A program made the position numbers and the translations under genes. This document shows positions 5,382 to 30,261 of a DNA stretch of 38,791 bases, piece by piece. Origin of the DNA: a virus; the IMG/VR virus record IMGVR_UViG_3300043602_000141, positions 1 through 38,791 of that record. One strand, written 5' to 3'. A model generated the notes under the pieces. That model was not told where the DNA came from, did not search any database, and worked only from the letters and a program-made list of their open reading frames with translations. Numbering within the stretch: position 1 is the stretch's first letter; each line of letters starts with the position of its first letter.

Positions 5382-6185
5382 ATGAACAGGATCACGACGC
5401 ACCAAAACGAGAGCTCGACGCGGGCGGCGTGGGTGAGGGGCTGCGTCGTCGCGGGTCTGGTGGCCGCGGGCGTGATCATGATCGGGCGCTCACCGCAGGC
5501 CGCCACGGGCACGCTCGTACCGGCGCTGTATCAAACGGTGCTCGACGCGAACGGCAACCCGATCAGCGGCGCGAAAGTCTGCACCTACCTCGCGGGGACC
5601 ACGACGCCGACGCCGACGTACACGGACGTCGCGTTGACGGTGCCGAACAGCAATCCGATCGTGACGGATACCGCGGGCCGCTGGTCGGCGTTCCTGACGC
5701 CGGCGAACAGCTATAAGTTCGTGCTGCAGGATGCGACGGGCACCGCGGGCGTGTGCAACGGCGCGATCGTGCGCACGATCGACAACGTGTCCGGGACGCC
5801 GGCCGCGCAGGCGGTGATCACGGGCACCTGGTTTCCGAGTCTCGGGGGCAGCACGACCTACACCGCGCGGGAAGGCACGTATGTCCGCACGGGGGCGCTC
5901 GTGGTCGCGCGGGGGACGCTGACGGTCGGCGCGATCGGCACGGGCTCGCCCACGTTCGTGGCGGGCCTGCCGTTTCCGATCAGTGGCGACACGGTGGGCG
6001 CGATCGTGGTCACGGGGCCGGCGGCGGCGCCGTATACGCGCGCGTCGCTCCTGGCGCTCAATGGCGCCGCGCAATTCGGCGTGGTCGGATCGGCGGCGGC
6101 GTCGGCGTCGGATGCGTATCTGTCGTTCTTCGCGAACGGGACGGGGGTGTATTTCACCCTGACCTACCAGACGCTCGCGCCGTAA
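5382..6185 (+). CDS. Tail-fibre/receptor-binding-like protein with N-terminal hydrophobic segment
   Basis: 267 residues, ATG at 5382 after a weak AAAGGACA ribosome site. Residues 46-118 (ALYQTVLDANGNPISGAKVCTY, PTYTDVALTVPNSNPIVTDTAGRWSAFL, SYKFVLQDA) match the motif order found at the N-termini of phage tail spikes and fibres: XaDxxGxPLxxGkvytY, then TYtDaalTvpnpNPivtDsaGr, then YKfvLkDa. In P22 this region attaches to the particle. The C-terminal half is Gly/Ser/Thr-rich and probably beta-structured. Oddly, residues 14-41 read as a signal peptide or membrane anchor (R14, hydrophobic 18-34, then SPQA), unusual for a virion fibre. It is the last gene of the late block before the opposing brnTA operon. 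Confidence 0.7.
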   Translation: MNRITTHQNESSTRAAWVRGCVVAGLVAAGVIMIGRSPQAATGTLVPALYQTVLDANGNPISGAKVCTYLAGTTTPTPTYTDVALTVPNSNPIVTDTAGRWSAFLTPANSYKFVLQDATGTAGVCNGAIVRTIDNVSGTPAAQAVITGTWFPSLGGSTTYTAREGTYVRTGALVVARGTLTVGAIGTGSPTFVAGLPFPISGDTVGAIVVTGPAAAPYTRASLLALNGAAQFGVVGSAAASASDAYLSFFANGTGVYFTLTYQTLAP

Positions 6186-6207
6186 GGCGGCGGCGGTGCG
6201 CGCCACT

Positions 6208-6495
6208 TTAAGATGCTCGCCGTACCGGCCGCTTGGCGCGGCGGGGCGCATGCGCGGCGAGCGTGGCCGTCATCCTCGCTTGCCAGCCTTTCCCCGTGGC
6301 GCGGTACGCCGCGAGCACGTCGCGATCGACGCGGAGACTCACTGGCTGCTTGGTGGGCGTCTGCTGCGGGCCACGCGCCCGACGATACGCGGCGGCGGCC
6401 CCGGGCGGCATGATCTCGAGCGCCGGCCGCATCTGCGCGAACTCCTGCGCCGTCAGGGGCGGATTCTCGGGATCATGGACGCGTCGCTTGGGCAT
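6208..6495 (-). CDS. brnA: BrnA-type antitoxin, DNA-binding
   Basis: 95 residues. The pattern LTAQEFAQMRPALEIMPP near residues 14-31 followed by QPVSLRVDRDVLAAYRATGKGWQ (about 49-71) and an Arg-rich end is that of BrnA antitoxins. They carry a ribbon-helix-helix-like DNA-binding segment, neutralise BrnT and repress the operon. It is encoded downstream of brnT and overlaps it by 23 bases, the usual toxin-first order of this family. Here it would stabilise the lysogen or act as a defence moron. The assignment is by family pattern; binding to the palindrome at 6754-6767 is inferred. Confidence 0.88.
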   Translation of the reverse strand: MPKRRVHDPENPPLTAQEFAQMRPALEIMPPGAAAAYRRARGPQQTPTKQPVSLRVDRDVLAAYRATGKGWQARMTATLAAHAPRRAKRPVRRAS

Positions 6496-6745
6496 ACCAT
6501 CGCTCCTCTCGGGGATTCGCTTTTCGTAGGCTGATCACGCGCGTCGCCGCGCCGCGATACGTGACGACCGCGACATGCAGGCGTCCGGCAATCGGCCCGA
6601 CTTGCACCATGCGCGCCTCGCCGTGGCGGGGACTGGTGAAGGCGATCGCCGCGGCCAAATCCATCGCCGCGTAGTCGCCCAGGCTGATCCCGTTGTGGGT
6701 CGCCCGGTTCAGCGCATCCTTCACCGGGTCGAACTCAATCAGCAC
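6473..6745 (-). CDS. brnT: BrnT-type ribonuclease toxin
   Basis: 90 residues from GTG at 6745. The family signature is clear: an EFDPVKDALNRATHNGISL-like N-terminus, then SPRHGEARMVQVGPIAGRLHVAVV and a final RVISLRKANPREERWY. BrnT toxins are RelE-fold ribonucleases that stop growth by cutting RNA. A TTG at 6766 would add seven residues, but it lies inside the promoter -10/operator. The GTG is 9 bases past the -10 box, so the message would be essentially leaderless. The family usually begins at the xxFxWDPxKxxxN segment, which also favours the GTG. It is expressed with brnA as a bicistronic operon. Confidence 0.88.
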   Translation of the reverse strand: MLIEFDPVKDALNRATHNGISLGDYAAMDLAAAIAFTSPRHGEARMVQVGPIAGRLHVAVVTYRGAATRVISLRKANPREERWYAQATRP

Positions 6746-6753
6746 TGAGATAT

Positions 6754-6782
6754 ATTGTATATACAATCTGATAGGATGTCAA
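6754..6782 (-). promoter_or_regulatory. Promoter and palindromic operator of brnTA
   Basis: On the minus strand a consensus -35 TTGACA (6782-6777) is followed after exactly 17 bases by TACAAT (6759-6754). The -10 lies inside a perfect 14-base palindrome, ATTGTATATACAAT (6754-6767). A repressor bound there would cover the -10, which fits autoregulation by BrnA or the BrnT-BrnA complex. The palindrome is strikingly AT-rich against its GC-rich surroundings. Confidence 0.8.
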
Positions 6783-6805
6783 GCGGCGGACTGCGCGGGA
6801 CGTGA

Positions 6806-7000
6806 TTATTTCGTGGGTTTCTTTTTCTTCGTGCGTGCGGCCAGCTTCCGGATGTTCTCGAGCACGAACGCCTCGGGCTGCCGACGGCCCTGTTCCCAGT
6901 CTTCGATGGTGCGTCGTGACTTGAGCCAGCGGGCGGCAAACGTCGTCGTGTCCTCCTCTAGCTCTGCGCGGAGCGCGCGGATTTCGTCGGCGATCGTCAT
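6806..7000 (-). CDS. Small HTH (XRE/HigA-like) repressor
   Basis: 64 residues. Residues 18-46 (TTTFAARWLKSRRTIEDWEQGRRQPEAFV) form a helix-turn-helix of the XRE/HigA type, with the typical TIxxWExGRRxP recognition helix and turn. The Lys-rich tail (58-64) may add nonspecific DNA contacts. It is little more than the DNA-binding domain: there is no dimerisation or LexA-like peptidase domain. ATG lies 9 bases past a -10 box, so the mRNA is probably leaderless, as for lambda cI from its maintenance promoter. Two TACGGC-N3-GCCGTA operators upstream are the likely targets. An orphan antitoxin-like regulator is the alternative. Confidence 0.8.
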   Translation of the reverse strand: MTIADEIRALRAELEEDTTTFAARWLKSRRTIEDWEQGRRQPEAFVLENIRKLAARTKKKKPTK

Positions 7001-7008
7001 GCGTCTTG

Positions 7009-7038
7009 ATACTACGGCTTAGCCGTAGCGTGCGTCAA
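7009..7038 (-). promoter_or_regulatory. Leftward promoter with operator O1 for the HTH repressor
   Basis: Minus-strand TTGACG (7038-7033), 18-base spacer, TAGTAT (7014-7009), then the ATG at 7000. A perfect inverted repeat CTACGGCT-T-AGCCGTAG (7012-7028) fills the spacer and touches the -10, so bound repressor should block this promoter (autoregulation). Confidence 0.75.
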
Positions 7039-7081
7039 GCTGAGCCACACACGATATTTGATCGCTGCACGAAATGAGGGC

Positions 7082-7110
7082 TTGACAGCGTTACGGCCAT
7101 GCCGTATGAT
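7082..7110 (+). promoter_or_regulatory. Strong rightward early promoter with operator O2
   Basis: TTGACA (7082-7087), a 17-base spacer and TATGAT (7105-7110) form a near-consensus sigma70 promoter. The inverted repeat TACGGC-CAT-GCCGTA (7092-7106) sits between the two boxes. It shares both half-sites and the 3-base gap with O1 (7013-7027), 79 bp away centre to centre. It should drive the rightward genes from 7248 and be shut by the 64-residue HTH protein. Confidence 0.82.
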
Positions 7111-7247
7111 TAGTGGGTCAGCAAGAAGCGGCGCCGCCCGGTGTTAGAGCACCGAACGACGCCTAACCCGACAACCGCAGCTACCGGTCAACGGGCTCCC
7201 CGCAGCATAACAGGGGGACGCCGCGTCGACAGAAACGGCCTCCTCTC
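7111..7247 (+). other. Untranslated leader of the rightward early operon
   Basis: About 130 bases separate the promoter from the first gene. A small hairpin CGGTG-TTAGAG-CACCG (7140-7155) lies in it, flanked by GC-rich sequence. A leader this long in such a compact genome could be a regulatory site, for example for antitermination, but I see no known element. Confidence 0.4.
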
Positions 7248-8909: not shown

Positions 8910-8955
8910 CAACGCGGGCACAGACACGCGGGCTATTTTGTGGTAGTGGGCGCGA

Positions 8956-12012: not shown

Positions 12013-12513
12013 TCAGCCTCGAGCGTGGCGCCGTTTGTTCGGCGCGAGTTCGGCCGATGTTTGTTCAGTAGGCACGGCGTCGCGGTGACGCGTGTGCTCC
12101 TTCTCCGCCAGCTTGACGCCGCGGGCGTAGCCCCCTTGGACAGCAGCGTGCGGGTCGGTCGTGCTCGAAGGAATGAAATTCCTCATCCACGACAACATGT
12201 TCTCCCGTACGGCCCGTGGCATGGCGTTCCAGACAGCGAGAACGACTCGTTCCTCGGCGGTCATCGGATTTGACGCCTGGCCGTACAGGCGCTCAAACCG
12301 GTCTGCGAGATCGGGTTTCTTCGCCGCACGAAAGACGGTGGACGGTTGTTCGCCGAGAACCTCCGCAAGCAGGAGACAGTTCTCCGTGCTCAGCGTGCCT
12401 TGCTTCACCCCTCGCAGGAACCCCGAGAACGTGATCCCCATGGTTCTCGCGAGGTGTTGTAGCGTCCCGAACTTCCCGCGGCGTTCTTTTAAGAATTGCT
12501 GCAAAGCATTCAC
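12013..12513 (-). CDS. HTH repressor (CI-like position), non-LexA type
   Basis: 166 residues from GTG 12513 (VNALQQFLKERRGKFGTLQHLARTMG). Residues 13-53 form an XRE-like helix-turn-helix (TLQHLARTMGITFSGFLRGVKQGTLSTENCLLLAEVLG). The C-terminal half is helical and polar; no Ser-Lys peptidase dyad or cleavage site of LexA/CI type is visible, so induction by RecA self-cleavage is unlikely. A longer frame reaches upstream to 12636 but would run through the operator region. It heads the leftward operon ending in int and faces a small rightward HTH gene, the lambda cI-cro geometry. Confidence 0.75.
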   Translation of the reverse strand: MNALQQFLKERRGKFGTLQHLARTMGITFSGFLRGVKQGTLSTENCLLLAEVLGEQPSTVFRAAKKPDLADRFERLYGQASNPMTAEERVVLAVWNAMPRAVRENMLSWMRNFIPSSTTDPHAAVQGGYARGVKLAEKEHTRHRDAVPTEQTSAELAPNKRRHARG

Positions 12514-12531
12514 TATGACTTCACGGTAGAA

Positions 12532-12626
12532 GACACAGTGTCGTGACCGCCACTGTAACACGGAATTGACATGACCGACAGTGATGTGAAATAAAGGCGT
12601 GTCCGGACAGTCACTAACTACTGTCC
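12532..12626. promoter_or_regulatory. Operator cluster between the divergent HTH genes
   Basis: Several ACAGT/ACTGT half-sites crowd this gap: GACACAGTGTC (12532-12542, arms GACAC/GTGTC), CACTGT (12551), ACAGTG (12578) and the inverted repeat GGACAGT-N8-ACTGTCC (12605-12626). Such an array of related sites between two divergently encoded HTH regulators is what a lysis-lysogeny switch region looks like. Which protein binds which site cannot be read from sequence. Confidence 0.7.
12566..12595 (+). promoter_or_regulatory. Putative rightward promoter of the replication operon
   Basis: TTGACA (12566-12571) is followed after 18 bases by AATAAA (12590-12595), a partial -10 match. An operator half-site ACAGTG lies inside the spacer. 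It would start transcription about 40 bases before the GTG of the 80-residue HTH gene. Confidence 0.55.
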
Positions 12627-12641
12627 TAGGGGTCAACCGAC

Positions 12642-12884
12642 GTGAATGCAGAAACGAAAACGCTGATTAGCCGGCTGAATCAGATCCGCCTCGACGGCGA
12701 TCTGAGCTACGCCGCGCTCGCCGATCGGGTCGGCATCGACCCAGGCGGGCTCTACAAAATCCTAAATGATCGAAGCGCGCGACCCTACGATCGAACGCTC
12801 CACAAGATTCGCCGCTACCTGGACGCGCCGGCCGCTGAACAGCCGGCGAAGCCGTCGCGCAAGGCGAAGGGTCGCGCTGCATGA
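12642..12884 (+). CDS. Small HTH protein in Cro position, 80 aa
   Basis: 80 residues, GTG start. Residues 20-45 (LSYAALADRVGIDPGGLYKILNDRSARPYDRT) are a typical XRE helix-turn-helix; the tail is Lys/Arg/Ala-rich. It is the first rightward gene opposite the 166-residue repressor, with the operator cluster between them, so a Cro-like role is the simplest reading. Its stop overlaps the next ATG (ATGA). Confidence 0.75.
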   Translation: MNAETKTLISRLNQIRLDGDLSYAALADRVGIDPGGLYKILNDRSARPYDRTLHKIRRYLDAPAAEQPAKPSRKAKGRAA

Positions 12885-13976: not shown

Positions 13977-14014
13977 CGCGGCTGGCGACGTGACGTATCG
14001 AACCCAATAAAAGC

Positions 14015-14069
14015 AGAACGTTCATCAACGCGCTTCGCGGCCAGCTTGGTCGCGTGTGGTGAACGTTCT
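14015..14069. repeat. Inverted repeat with two GAACGTTC palindromes before the initiator gene
   Basis: AGAACGTTCA (14015-14024) and TGAACGTTCT (14060-14069) are perfect inverted copies, and each contains the palindrome GAACGTTC. They flank 35 bases containing CGCG-rich sequence. A third copy, TGTGAACGTTCACA, lies at 16837-16850. This may be an operator pair acting by looping, or part of the origin. It occupies the only sizeable gap (13977-14080) in this operon. Confidence 0.65.
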
Positions 14070-14080
14070 GAGCTCGGAGT

Positions 14081-15145
14081 GTGAGTGGTGAGCCGCTCGA
14101 AGTTATACACGAAGTCGGCCGGAGCGGGAAAGCTCGACCGTACCGGCGGGCGGGGCGGTCGGCGGTGAGCACAGCCGCCGAGCAGTACGTGCAGGCGTGT
14201 ACGCACCCGAAGGTGAGGGGCGCGACGCGGGCGCTGTTGCAGGCGATCGCGCAGCTCGTCCCCGACGGGTACACGACGACCGCGGCGATCGGGATGGACG
14301 ATCTCGCCGCGGCGGCGGGGCTCCATCGACGGACGGTGTTGAGCCGGTTGGAGGTGTTGGTGACGATCGGCCAGGTGCGCGTGATCGACGGCGGGCAAGG
14401 ACGCGTCGCCCGCTACATGATGGTCGAGCTCGACGGCGCGCGGCCGCTGCTGAACGTGCCGCTGCCGCTCCGCGCCGATCTGCAGGCCGTCCCGCCGAGG
14501 GTGTCCTCTGTCGAGGTCGATTCTGACGCCGCGGAACTTGTGATCACAAGTTGTTCGGCCGCCCCTGAACTTGTGATCACAAGTTGGTGGCGGCACGTAC
14601 TTGTGATCACAAGTACGTTTTTAAAGGGGTTTTTGACGCCCGTACTTGTGATCACAAGTTGGGGGTGTCGACAACTTGTGATCACAAGTACTTTCTTTAT
14701 ACGCCCCCTTGGCAATGCCCCGCGCGCGCGCGACGTACACACTTTAAAGAACGTACACACACACACACACGGCGCCGCGCCGCGGAACACGGGACCGCCG
14801 GCGAGCGAGCCACCCGGCGATCCGACCCCGCCGCCGATCGTGCATCCCTGGCACGCCTGGTGCGGCCCGCTGGTGTGCGTCCCGAACAAGCTGCATGAGG
14901 ATTGGCGTCGGAAGCACCCCGAGGCCTGGCTGTTCGCGTTTTACGCGCGGACGCACGCGGCGACGCCCGTCGAACGCCTGCGGTTAGTCGTTGACGAGTT
15001 CAAATTCTGGCGGACGGCGCTCGCCGCGGAGTTCACCCCGCAGGCCACAGGCGCCGCGCCGAATGCCAGAGCCGCGCCCTCGGCGGACTTATACGCCCGC
15101 GCGGCGGAGGAACGCCGACGACGACAAGGGAGTGGCTTCACATGA
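14081..15145 (+). CDS. Replication initiator (lambda O-like arrangement) with iterons inside the gene
   Basis: 354 residues from GTG 14081; GTG 14165 (residue 29) is a possible later start. Residues 35-120 form a winged helix-turn-helix (TRALLQAIAQLVPDGYTT, MDDLAAAAGLHRRTVLSRLEVLVTIGQVRVIDGG), as in phage O-type initiators. The middle (about 150-240) is low complexity because it is encoded by iterons: five LVITS units. The C-terminal part (about 265-325, HPWHAWCGPLVCVPN to VDEFKFWRTAL) could contact the helicase loader, whose gene overlaps the stop. The order initiator with internal origin then loader copies lambda O-ori-P. Initiator function is inferred from this architecture. Confidence 0.78.
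   Translation: MSGEPLEVIHEVGRSGKARPYRRAGRSAVSTAAEQYVQACTHPKVRGATRALLQAIAQLVPDGYTTTAAIGMDDLAAAAGLHRRTVLSRLEVLVTIGQVRVIDGGQGRVARYMMVELDGARPLLNVPLPLRADLQAVPPRVSSVEVDSDAAELVITSCSAAPELVITSWWRHVLVITSTFLKGFLTPVLVITSWGCRQLVITSTFFIRPLGNAPRARDVHTLKNVHTHTHGAAPRNTGPPASEPPGDPTPPPIVHPWHAWCGPLVCVPNKLHEDWRRKHPEAWLFAFYARTHAATPVERLRLVVDEFKFWRTALAAEFTPQATGAAPNARAAPSADLYARAAEERRRRQGSGFT
14535..14690. repeat. ori: Origin-like array: five palindromic iterons
   Basis: ACTTGTGATCACAAGT, a perfect 16-base palindrome, occurs at 14536, 14569, 14599, 14644 and 14674. Start spacings are 33, 30, 45 and 30 bases, all multiples of three. Copies 1 and 2 extend to 18-base palindromes, and copy 3 to 24 bases (14595-14618). 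Between copies 3 and 4 lies a T/A-rich patch (TTTTTAAAGGGGTTTTT), and another AT-rich stretch follows copy 5, both candidate unwinding elements. This is the expected look of a replication origin bound by the protein encoded around it. Confidence 0.88.
14721..14770. repeat. Simple repeats beside the iterons, including (AC)8
   Basis: A CGCGCGCGCGCG run is followed by two copies of ACGTACACAC (14733 and 14751) separated by CTTTAAAGA, and then an (AC)8 tract at 14755-14770. It encodes the Thr/His tract of the initiator. Alternating purine-pyrimidine DNA of this type melts or forms Z-DNA readily and may belong to the origin. Confidence 0.7.
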
Positions 15146-16014
15146 CGACGCAGGACTGTCCGTTCTGTGAGGCGCATTTCCGCGGGTGGCGGTATCAGTA
15201 CACGCCGTGGGTGGAACCGCGCGTGACGCGCTGTGTCTGCTATCGCGCCGCGCAGGATCGCGCGCGGCTCGAGCGGGCCGGCATTCCGGCGCGGTATCGC
15301 GCTGCGACGTTCGAGACGTTCGAGGCGTACAACGACAGCTTGATGGAAGCGCGACGGATCGCGCAGTACTGGGCCGACAGTTATCCGGAAATTCCGCGGC
15401 GCGTGGGGGACAGGGCCGGCCGCGGCCTCGTGTTGATGGGGCCGGCGGGGATCGGGAAGACGCATCTCGTCGCGGTCCTACTGAAGCAGGTGATCACACA
15501 GGCCGGCTGTCGGGGGCTCTTTTATTCGACGAAGGATCTGTTACGCCTGATCCGCGGGAGCTACAACGCGGAGACAAAGACGACCGAAGCGCAGGTACTC
15601 GATCCGGTCCTGACGTGTGAGCTGCTCGTGCTCGATGATCTCGGGGAGGAGCGCGTGACGGATTGGGTCGCGGAGATGATGAACACGATCGTCAATACCC
15701 GCTACAACACGGGCCGGCCGATCATCTGTACGACGAACTACGCCGACGTCGACGATCCGGACGAAATGAACGGACTGCTGTGGCGGATCGGGTTTCGGAT
15801 GCAATCCCGATTGCACGAGATGTGCGAGTTTATCGACCTCGCGGGCGCCAGTTATCGCGACCTGCCGCCGAACGGCACCGTGGCGGACCTGCGGCGGCTC
15901 GCGAAACAGCCGCGGAAGGCGACGCCCGCGCGCGCGCAACAGCGCCGGCCGCCGACGCCACACGACGGCAAGGCGGATCTCAAATGGTCCGGCGGCAAAG
16001 GCGGCAACACATGA
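15142..16014 (+). CDS. DnaC/IstB-like AAA+ helicase loader
   Basis: 290 residues, ATG overlapping the initiator stop. N-terminal Cys cluster (C6, C9, C31, C33) typical of phage and Gram-positive DnaC/DnaI-type zinc modules. Walker A GPAGIGKT (100-107), Walker B LLVLDDLGEE (161-170), sensor-1 CTTN (196-199), and an Arg-rich segment MQSRLHEM (220-227) that could hold sensor/finger arginines. It should load the host replicative helicase at the phage origin, as lambda P or DnaC do. The basic, Pro-rich tail (250-290) is probably disordered. No phage helicase is encoded. Confidence 0.88.
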   Translation: MTTQDCPFCEAHFRGWRYQYTPWVEPRVTRCVCYRAAQDRARLERAGIPARYRAATFETFEAYNDSLMEARRIAQYWADSYPEIPRRVGDRAGRGLVLMGPAGIGKTHLVAVLLKQVITQAGCRGLFYSTKDLLRLIRGSYNAETKTTEAQVLDPVLTCELLVLDDLGEERVTDWVAEMMNTIVNTRYNTGRPIICTTNYADVDDPDEMNGLLWRIGFRMQSRLHEMCEFIDLAGASYRDLPPNGTVADLRRLAKQPRKATPARAQQRRPPTPHDGKADLKWSGGKGGNT

Positions 16015-16604
16015 GGGTGATCGGCGGCGGCGCGCAGACGTCGCAGACTTCTCCGATCGACTATGCGCAGTGGCTCACCAAAGCGGTCGCGGCGCGACGG
16101 CTCGACGTCTCGACGAAAACGATCGAGCAGTGGGATAAAGCCGGGACGTTGCCGGGGACGCTGTATCGGCGCCCGACGGGCGGGCCGCGGCTCCGGGTGT
16201 ATAACCCGGCGCGGGTCGCGGATCTCGTCGCCGCGCGCCGGCTCGGGCGTCCGGTGACGGTGTTAGGACCGGATTCGGACGGGGCGCCGGCCGGGGCGCA
16301 GGACGTGGGCCCGTTTCTGGCGCGGGCGCCACTCGAGCCGGCGCCGGCGCTCGAGCCGCGCGCGGCCTCGGCGATCGGCGCGTTGGTCGAACTCCTGACG
16401 GCGGTCAAGGCGGCTTCTGAGAGTTCTCAGACGTTGGTGCTCACGCTCGAGCAGGCGGCGGCCGTGTCGGGGTGGTCGGTCGGGTTCCTGCGGCGGGCGC
16501 GGGCGGCGGGGCGGTTGCCGGCGGATCGCGATCGGTGGCGCGGGCCGGAGGGGCGCTGGCATGTCGGGTGGAAAATTCGGCGCAAGGACCTGGAGGCGCT
16601 GTGA
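16011..16604 (+). CDS. DNA-binding protein with two MerR/excisionase-like HTH domains, 197 aa
   Basis: 197 residues. First HTH at about 19-75 (WLTKAVAARRLDVSTKTIEQWDKAG...PRLRVYNPARVADLVAARR); second at about 143-195 (LTLEQAAAVSGWSVGFLRRARAAGRL...WKIRRKDLEAL). An Ala/Pro-rich linker joins them. The N-terminus has a QTSQTS element encoded by a CGCAGACGTCGCAGACTT repeat. Two related DNA-binding modules on one chain suggest binding of spaced sites or bridging. The last codons (KDLEAL) and the bases around the stop are copied at the ends of the next two genes. Confidence 0.65.
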   Translation: MRVIGGGAQTSQTSPIDYAQWLTKAVAARRLDVSTKTIEQWDKAGTLPGTLYRRPTGGPRLRVYNPARVADLVAARRLGRPVTVLGPDSDGAPAGAQDVGPFLARAPLEPAPALEPRAASAIGALVELLTAVKAASESSQTLVLTLEQAAAVSGWSVGFLRRARAAGRLPADRDRWRGPEGRWHVGWKIRRKDLEAL

Positions 16605-16605: not shown

Positions 16606-16841
16606 TGCGCTGGTTTGAGCAGTATCGAATGGACTGGATCGCCGAGACGCTCCGGGTCTTCGGCTTCATCAACCGCGAACATCTAGAACGCAAGTTCGGG
16701 ATGTCGACGCCGCAGGCCTCGAACGATCTCGCGCGGTTCCGGCGGGCGCATCCGACGGCGATGACCTACGACATGACCGCGAAACGCTATGTGGTGAACG
16801 AGGGCGGGAAAATTCGCGGCAAGGACCTGGAGGCGCTGTGA
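16605..16841 (+). CDS. Winged-helix DNA-binding protein, 78 aa
   Basis: 78 residues. IAETLRVFGFINREHLERKFGMSTPQASNDLARFRRAHPTAMTYDMTAKRYV (about 12-63) matches a winged HTH: helix, LxxxF turn, recognition helix STPQASNDLARFR, then wing. It begins inside gene-end repeat copy 1 and ends in copy 2 (KDLEAL). Regulator of unknown target. Confidence 0.65.
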   Translation: MRWFEQYRMDWIAETLRVFGFINREHLERKFGMSTPQASNDLARFRRAHPTAMTYDMTAKRYVVNEGGKIRGKDLEAL

Positions 16842-16842
16842 A
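16823..16842 (+). repeat. Gene-end repeat, copy 2 of 3
   Basis: Same 20 bases as copy 1, at the 3' end of the 78-residue gene. It provides GGAGG for the gene starting at GTG 16838. Upstream identity reaches back to about 16806 with one two-base swap (CGGCGC against CGCGGC). Confidence 0.9.
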
Positions 16843-16850
16843 CGTTCACA
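16837..16850. promoter_or_regulatory. 14-bp palindrome TGTGAACGTTCACA at a start codon
   Basis: A perfect palindrome covers the GTG start at 16838. Its GAACGTTC centre also occurs in the inverted repeat before the initiator gene (14015-14069). A protein bound here, or the RNA hairpin formed, could control translation or local transcription. Confidence 0.6.
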
Positions 16851-29998: not shown

Positions 29999-30261
29999 CG
30001 CGGTTGCATCCGGTGATCACAAGTCTGCAGACTAACGGGCACCGATGACGATGTAAGAGTTTCACCCGGACGGCGTCGCTAGGCTTGCAACCGAACGCGG
30101 AGATCATCCGACCGCTGCGACGCTGACACGGATCACACGACGCGATGGCGTGTGTTCGCACCCTCGAGTACTCGGAGGGCCGCGGGCCACGCCATTTCGC
30201 GTTGTGGGATCACTCGGACGGGGATGCTTCGCGCGGCGGGGTGACGTGCGCGGGGTGGACG
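29999..30261. other. Gap between portal and scaffold genes, with a partial iteron
   Basis: 263 bases with no convincing gene. GTGATCACAAGT (30013-30024) equals the right 12 bases of the origin iteron. CGGTTGCA (30001-30008) and TGCAACCG (30086-30093) are inverted copies 78 bases apart. An in-frame extension of the scaffold gene reaches 30145 but lacks a ribosome site. A promoter, pac-like site or stray iteron could lie here; nothing more specific is visible. Confidence 0.45.

Follow-up and report, generated by a model that had tools for sequence, protein, structure and literature searches.

The putative initiator locus and its palindrome array

The window, meaning the whole 38.8-kb stretch of virus contig analysed here, encodes a tyrosine integrase, a Cro-type gene, P22-type portal and coat proteins and an exonuclease. 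Judged from these genes and their arrangement, the record is that of a temperate, P22-like phage whose genes follow the lambdoid order. Within its early region lies a gene for a putative replication initiator that adjoins a gene for a DnaC-like helicase loader (Table 1). Alignment with homologues favours GTG at 14165 over 14081 as the initiator start.

Table 1. Features of the initiator region, in window positions
Feature	Positions	Strand	Basis or remark
Possible repressor gene, divergent from the Cro-like gene	12013..12636	-	Placement and HTH-like appearance; no family match
Cro/C1-type HTH gene, head of early rightward operon	12642..12884	+	HTH_26, E 7.7e-6
Putative initiator gene, 326 aa, GTG start by homology	14165..15145	+	Five IMG/VR homologues; ORF open from 14081
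N-terminal winged helix-turn-helix domain, aa 1-88, presumed iteron-binding	14165..14428	+	AlphaFold2, Foldseek
Iteron 1, ACTTGTGATCACAAGT	14536..14551	.	18-bp perfect palindrome, 14535-14552
Iteron 2	14569..14584	.	18-bp perfect palindrome, 14568-14585
Iteron 3	14599..14614	.	24-bp perfect palindrome, 14595-14618
AT-rich patch TTTTTAAAGGGGTTTTT, candidate unwinding element	14618..14634	.	Between iterons 3 and 4
Iteron 4	14644..14659	.	16-bp perfect palindrome
Iteron 5	14674..14689	.	16-bp perfect palindrome
Second AT-rich patch ACTTTCTTTATA	14690..14701	.	Immediately after iteron 5
(CG)6 tract	14721..14732	.	(CG)n follows the array in all six homologous genes
ACGTACACACTTTAAAGAACGTACAC(AC)n tract	14733..14772	.	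Short-repeat tract, candidate unwinding or loading site
DnaC-like helicase loader gene	15142..16014	+	Overlaps initiator stop (ATGA); PHROG 50, E 3.5e-47; IstB PF01695, E 3.1e-14

Five exact copies of a 16-mer, each the core of a perfect palindrome, sit 370-525 bp into the initiator gene, where they fall within codons 125-175 counted from GTG 14165. All five are read in one frame of ORF 14081-15145, each as LVITS, and their start-to-start spacings are 33, 30, 45 and 30. An earlier note on this DNA had described these palindromic in-frame repeats, their spacings in multiples of three, the repeated LVITS and an AT-rich patch between copies 3 and 4. All of this holds, and only the span that it assigned to the array, 14535-14690, has to be trimmed by one base on each side. 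Dinucleotide shuffles yield 0.03 matches, and the real array is far above chance. With up to two mismatches allowed, the 16-mer is found nowhere else in the window; with up to three, a single extra site appears at 30009 and is unrelated.

Related initiators and their arrays

Five homologues were found on IMG/VR contigs (L029, L100, L102, L109 and L110) through the loader, the half-site pattern and a four-sequence profile. All five carry a repeat array at the same position in the gene. L029, whose loader is 85% identical to that of the window, has 12 half-sites CTTGTGATC/GATCACAAG there, and L100 and L102 have 10 and 6 half-sites of the window word. In these three phages the half-sites are separate, lie in both orientations and use two reading frames, and overall initiator protein identity in this comparison is only 43-46%. 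Among homologues the word is read as LVI, ITS, ITRITS or TCDP.

The two remaining relatives use other words. L109 has four 25-nt palindromes of the form AACCTGTG-CAGATCGTT-CA(C/T)AGGTT at spacings of 34, 32 and 43, so placed that the repeats shift reading frame. L110 has six palindromes, AACGTCGGCA-ACTTC-TGCCGACGTT, some with degenerate arms, at spacings of 42, 43, 33, 53 and 42; its array includes a 71-nt duplication. Only in the window are two half-sites fused so that they share GATC and make up a perfect palindrome. The array words were not found elsewhere in the homologous loci. By sequence comparison, a repeat array at this gene position is a family feature whose word, layout and frame vary.

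The predicted recognition helix varies as well. It reads (H/D/N)RRTV in the four phages with CTTGTGATC, SLRTV in L109, where the arm is ACCTGTG, and VDRTA in L110, where the arm is CGTCGGCA. This pattern fits a joint change of helix and DNA word, for which six sequences are too few to serve as proof. It is surprising that iteron rearrangement and word switching occur within one initiator family, as are the (CG)n and short-repeat tract that its members keep beyond the array and the DnaA domain I at the end of one relative.

In L110 (IMGVR_UViG_3300009174_000001, positions 5986-7206), the C-terminus of the initiator is a DnaA N-terminal domain (domain I; PF11638, E 2.3e-10), which stands in for the C-terminal part of the other five proteins. 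A DnaA_N match at the end of this protein points to a function in replication initiation.

Selection on DNA and the spacing of the repeats

Because the homologues vary the orientation, frame, palindromic form and spacing of the word, selection must act on the DNA. Read in this way, the sequences identify the half-site as the selected unit and the reading frame as mostly a by-product. Codon use can be set beside this: CTT, ACA and AGT are rare choices in this phage (0.8%, 3.5% and 11%), and the exact synonymous choice in each LVITS copy has a probability of about 1.4e-5. The only hard frame rule visible is exclusion of the frame that gives TTG-TGA, since TGA is a stop.

The earlier note had proposed that a frame constraint shapes the protein. 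The five window copies do share one frame, but the constraint is weak, as relatives read the word as LVI in one frame and as TCDP in another, and the L109 and L110 spacings break the multiples of three (all three spacings in L109 and two of five in L110). Seven of the 12 palindrome spacings are multiples of three, which is not a significant enrichment over one third (p 0.07), and the idea that the reading frame sets the spacings is unsupported across the family. The spacings fit whole helical turns better than a frame rule: phasing of the 12, which are partly non-independent because part of the L110 array is duplicated, gives p of about 0.002 at 10.5 bp per turn and 0.0004-0.012 for 10.6-10.4.

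AT-rich DNA and the tract beyond the array

The duplex-stability minimum of the window, taken over 100 bp, falls at 14603-14702, within the array, and takes in the AT-rich patch between iterons 3 and 4. A minimum of GC skew near 14.6 kb, suggested earlier as a check, is absent; cumulative skew in the window climbs almost steadily through the region. GATC is over-represented, for which a second-order Markov model mostly accounts.

Among the six genes, the (CG)n tract is shortest in L109 (CGCGCGCG) and reaches seven CG in L029, and short repeats follow it in every case. The window has an AC repeat here, together with CTTTAAAG. In all relatives but L110, a trinucleotide tract of TAC, CTA, CCA or ACA takes the corresponding position, with a CTTAAAGAA-like core except in L102, where the core is absent; in L029, L100 and L109 it contains CTTAAAG or CTTATAAG. 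L110 has TAG/GAAG repeats. The tract is read as LLLKELLL in L029 and as PPLKETTTTT in L100, and because these frames differ it looks like a DNA element, possibly a site of unwinding or loading.

The predicted initiator protein

An AlphaFold2 model run with the six homologues predicts an N-terminal winged-helix domain (pLDDT mostly 84-94 across aa 1-70; 80 overall for the domain, pTM 0.74), a disordered stretch at aa 90-226 that includes the array-encoded residues, and a helical C-terminal part. Foldseek searches with the N-terminal domain against the PDB returned only generic winged-helix repressors, all with E >0.01, including 4pql/5kbj, which we take to be structures of the pSK41 RepA_N N-terminal domain. 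The domain resembles MarR/Fur/ArsR-type repressors, and TubR is also among its neighbours. A viral set yielded numerous phage HTH proteins, among them a lambdoid replication protein O (E 3.5e-5). These matches indicate likeness at the level of the predicted fold.

The window protein itself gave no significant match to a known family. Pfam has no family for it or for its DNA-binding domain; neither the replication protein O family of phages nor a RepA_N domain was detected. The PHROG 6643 'replication initiation protein' profile gives E 6.3e-4 for L029, 0.013 for L100, 0.028 for L102 and 0.19 for the window. No match was obtained by tblastn of the window initiator and the L102 N-terminal domain against phages and plasmids, or when IMG/VR was scanned with the initiator as a lone query sequence. 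By the tests run, it belongs to neither the lambda O nor the pSK41 Rep sequence family.

The loader and the probable host

A DnaC-like gene adjoins the initiator in L029 and L100 too, and was not found on the L102, L109 and L110 contigs, which may be fragments. Over most of its length, the window loader is 44-51% identical to DnaC-like genes in about 55 acidobacterial genomes, the nearest in species genomes, and both share the tail DGKADLKW-GG. Initiator and half-site are both absent from these acidobacterial loci, and an initiator profile run across 396 acidobacterial genomes gave one weak match, which contains a stop. The breadth of the acidobacterial genes suggests that they are chromosomal rather than carried by prophages. 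The host likely belongs to the Acidobacteriota, judging by these sequence matches. The closeness of the loader at 15142-16014 to the genes at L031-L092 points to loader exchange between phage and host lineage.

A probable origin within the initiator gene

We consider it highly probable that the product of 14165-15145 is the replication initiator of this phage, that the five palindromes inside the gene are its binding sites and that replication therefore begins at an origin in mid-gene. The earlier proposal of a lambda-like origin inside the initiator gene is well supported by the homologues, the predicted winged helix, the disordered array-encoded linker, the adjoining loader gene, the lambdoid gene order and the stability minimum.

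We infer the following course of initiation. The winged-helix domain, probably as a dimer, would bind each palindrome. As the palindromes lie roughly whole helical turns apart, the bound proteins would share one face of the DNA and assemble into a nucleoprotein complex, which could open the AT-rich DNA in the array and just beyond it. The helical C-terminal domain, the complex or both would then recruit the DnaC-like loader encoded next door, which would deliver the host replicative helicase. The linker encoded by the array would be disordered, its exact residues being of little importance. This course follows the scheme of lambda and pSK41 (PMC7466680, PMC5703833).

This type of arrangement is already known from lambda and pSK41; the initiator protein family is newly recorded. 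The six related candidate origins, with initiator and putative target in one gene each, make a compact and testable set from phages whose hosts are probably Acidobacteriota. Since the target lies inside the gene of its own reader, joint change of initiator and iteron, and the orientation and fusion of half-sites, are open to direct study. The first virus isolates of Acidobacteriota were reported only in 2025 (PMC11924767). The region could also serve as a replicon in hosts for which genetic tools are scarce.

Comparison with known origins

In lambda, the helicase-loader gene P lies directly downstream of O, in an early operon that follows cro. The window shares this order, with a loader gene directly downstream of the initiator and an early operon after the Cro-type gene; unlike P, its loader is a DnaC-like AAA+ protein. 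In the O genes of lambda and Stx phages, iterons lie in the middle of the initiator gene with AT-rich DNA adjacent, and extra iterons just lengthen the linker (PMC7466680). The window likewise has inverted-repeat sites, presumably bound by the initiator, within the initiator gene (all six homologues carry repeats) and easily melted AT-rich DNA by its iterons, although its main AT patch is inside the array and that of lambda beside it. Lambda iterons are imperfect inverted repeats of 19 bp (PMC7466680), and those of the window are perfect over 16-24 bp. The perfect palindrome was thus rightly called unusual in its perfection; inverted symmetry as such is not, as lambda iterons have it too. Nor is the palindrome the unit that the family conserves: relatives with the window word use separate half-sites of mixed orientation. 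The window further differs from lambda in its extra (CG)n and short-repeat tract, and a Pfam scan finds no relation.

The pSK41 Rep protein binds four Rep boxes, central in rep, through a winged-helix N-terminal domain; its central segment is a dispensable linker and its helical C-terminal domain acts on the replication machinery (PMC5703833). The predicted fold of the window protein has the same plan of winged-helix domain, central origin-encoded linker and helical C-terminal domain. Unlike the RepA_N proteins of plasmids from Gram-positives, it lacks the Pfam RepA_N domain, is accompanied by a separate loader gene and has another box sequence.

The basal unwinding system of bacterial oriC consists of a DnaA-box, a GC-rich spacer and a DnaA-trio, in this order (PMC8287927). 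Binding sites, GC tract and short repeats follow each other similarly here, the L110 initiator carries DnaA domain I, and CTACTACTA in L029 is the complement of the 3'-GAT-5' trios of oriC. In contrast to oriC, no DnaA box was noticed, the window tract is an AC dinucleotide repeat with no trios, and the distance to the tract reaches about 50 bp. The resemblance is a lead only. A more elaborate account, which we think rather unlikely, would make the family one of exchangeable words: helix and in-gene iteron would evolve as a pair, the six phages having three types of word, scattered half-sites of mixed orientation would be re-packed into fused palindromes, and (CG)n plus the short-repeat tract would be an oriC-like opening element used with host DnaA or an initiator-borne DnaA domain I.

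Alternative explanations

The palindromes might instead be operators, at which the winged-helix protein or another repressor binds within the gene and, by autoregulation, shuts off transcription of the early operon while replication starts elsewhere. The repressor-like fold of the N-terminal domain agrees with this, perfect palindromes are typical operator shapes, and similar words occur outside genes in unrelated phages (see below). Yet the sites lie deep inside the gene rather than at a promoter, number 5-12 per gene and occupy the linker-encoding segment in every one of the six homologues; the adjoining helicase loader and the DnaA domain I of one homologue also speak against operators. We therefore regard operators as improbable.

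Still less probable is a centromere-like partition or segregation site with a TubR/ParR-like adaptor. Centromeres are iteron arrays and TubR is a Foldseek neighbour, but the integrase found in the window and four of five relatives argues for integrated prophages, the neighbour of the array gene is a helicase loader, and no TubZ or ParM gene was recognised among those beside the array.

A further reading, in which the repeats serve the protein through a functional LVITS peptide and the palindromic DNA is incidental, is largely refuted, despite the single frame of all five window copies: homologues read the word differently, the codon choice is exact and rare, the segment is predicted to be disordered and the L109 repeats change frame. 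A spreading palindromic element or hairpin repeat with no cis role in replication, for which the 24-bp palindrome of copy 3, a potential cruciform, might speak, is scarcely credible given the lack of further copies in the window or homologous loci and of paired CTTGTGATCACAAG in GTDB species genomes, and the units in relatives are not hairpins.

Similar words and other repeats

Pairs of TTGTGATCACAA, 22-54 bp apart from start to start, recur in several groups of marine phages that are unrelated to one another (L002-L024). They are mostly extragenic and have no linked initiator homologue, and were treated as unrelated. Half-site matches in L098, L099, L101 and L104-L106 also have unrelated contexts. 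Across the 396 acidobacterial genomes, the half-site pair gave one chance-like intergenic match, ACTTGTGATCGACTTGTGATC at L097:1501-1521, which lies amid further ACTTGTACTT-like words and is possibly a host regulator site or a product of chance.

The window has other repeats too. An inverted repeat CAGAACGTTCATCA/TGGTGAACGTTCTG lies just upstream of the initiator gene, at 14014-14070, and a palindrome TGTGAACGTTCACA marks the start of a later small gene, at 16837-16850; GTGAACGTTC may be an operator common to both sites. Consecutive small ORFs (at 16604, 16841 and 17068 in the window, and at 8938 and 9251 in L109) finish with RKDLEAL or QDLEAL, a pattern that copying of a short 3' end from one gene to its neighbour could give.
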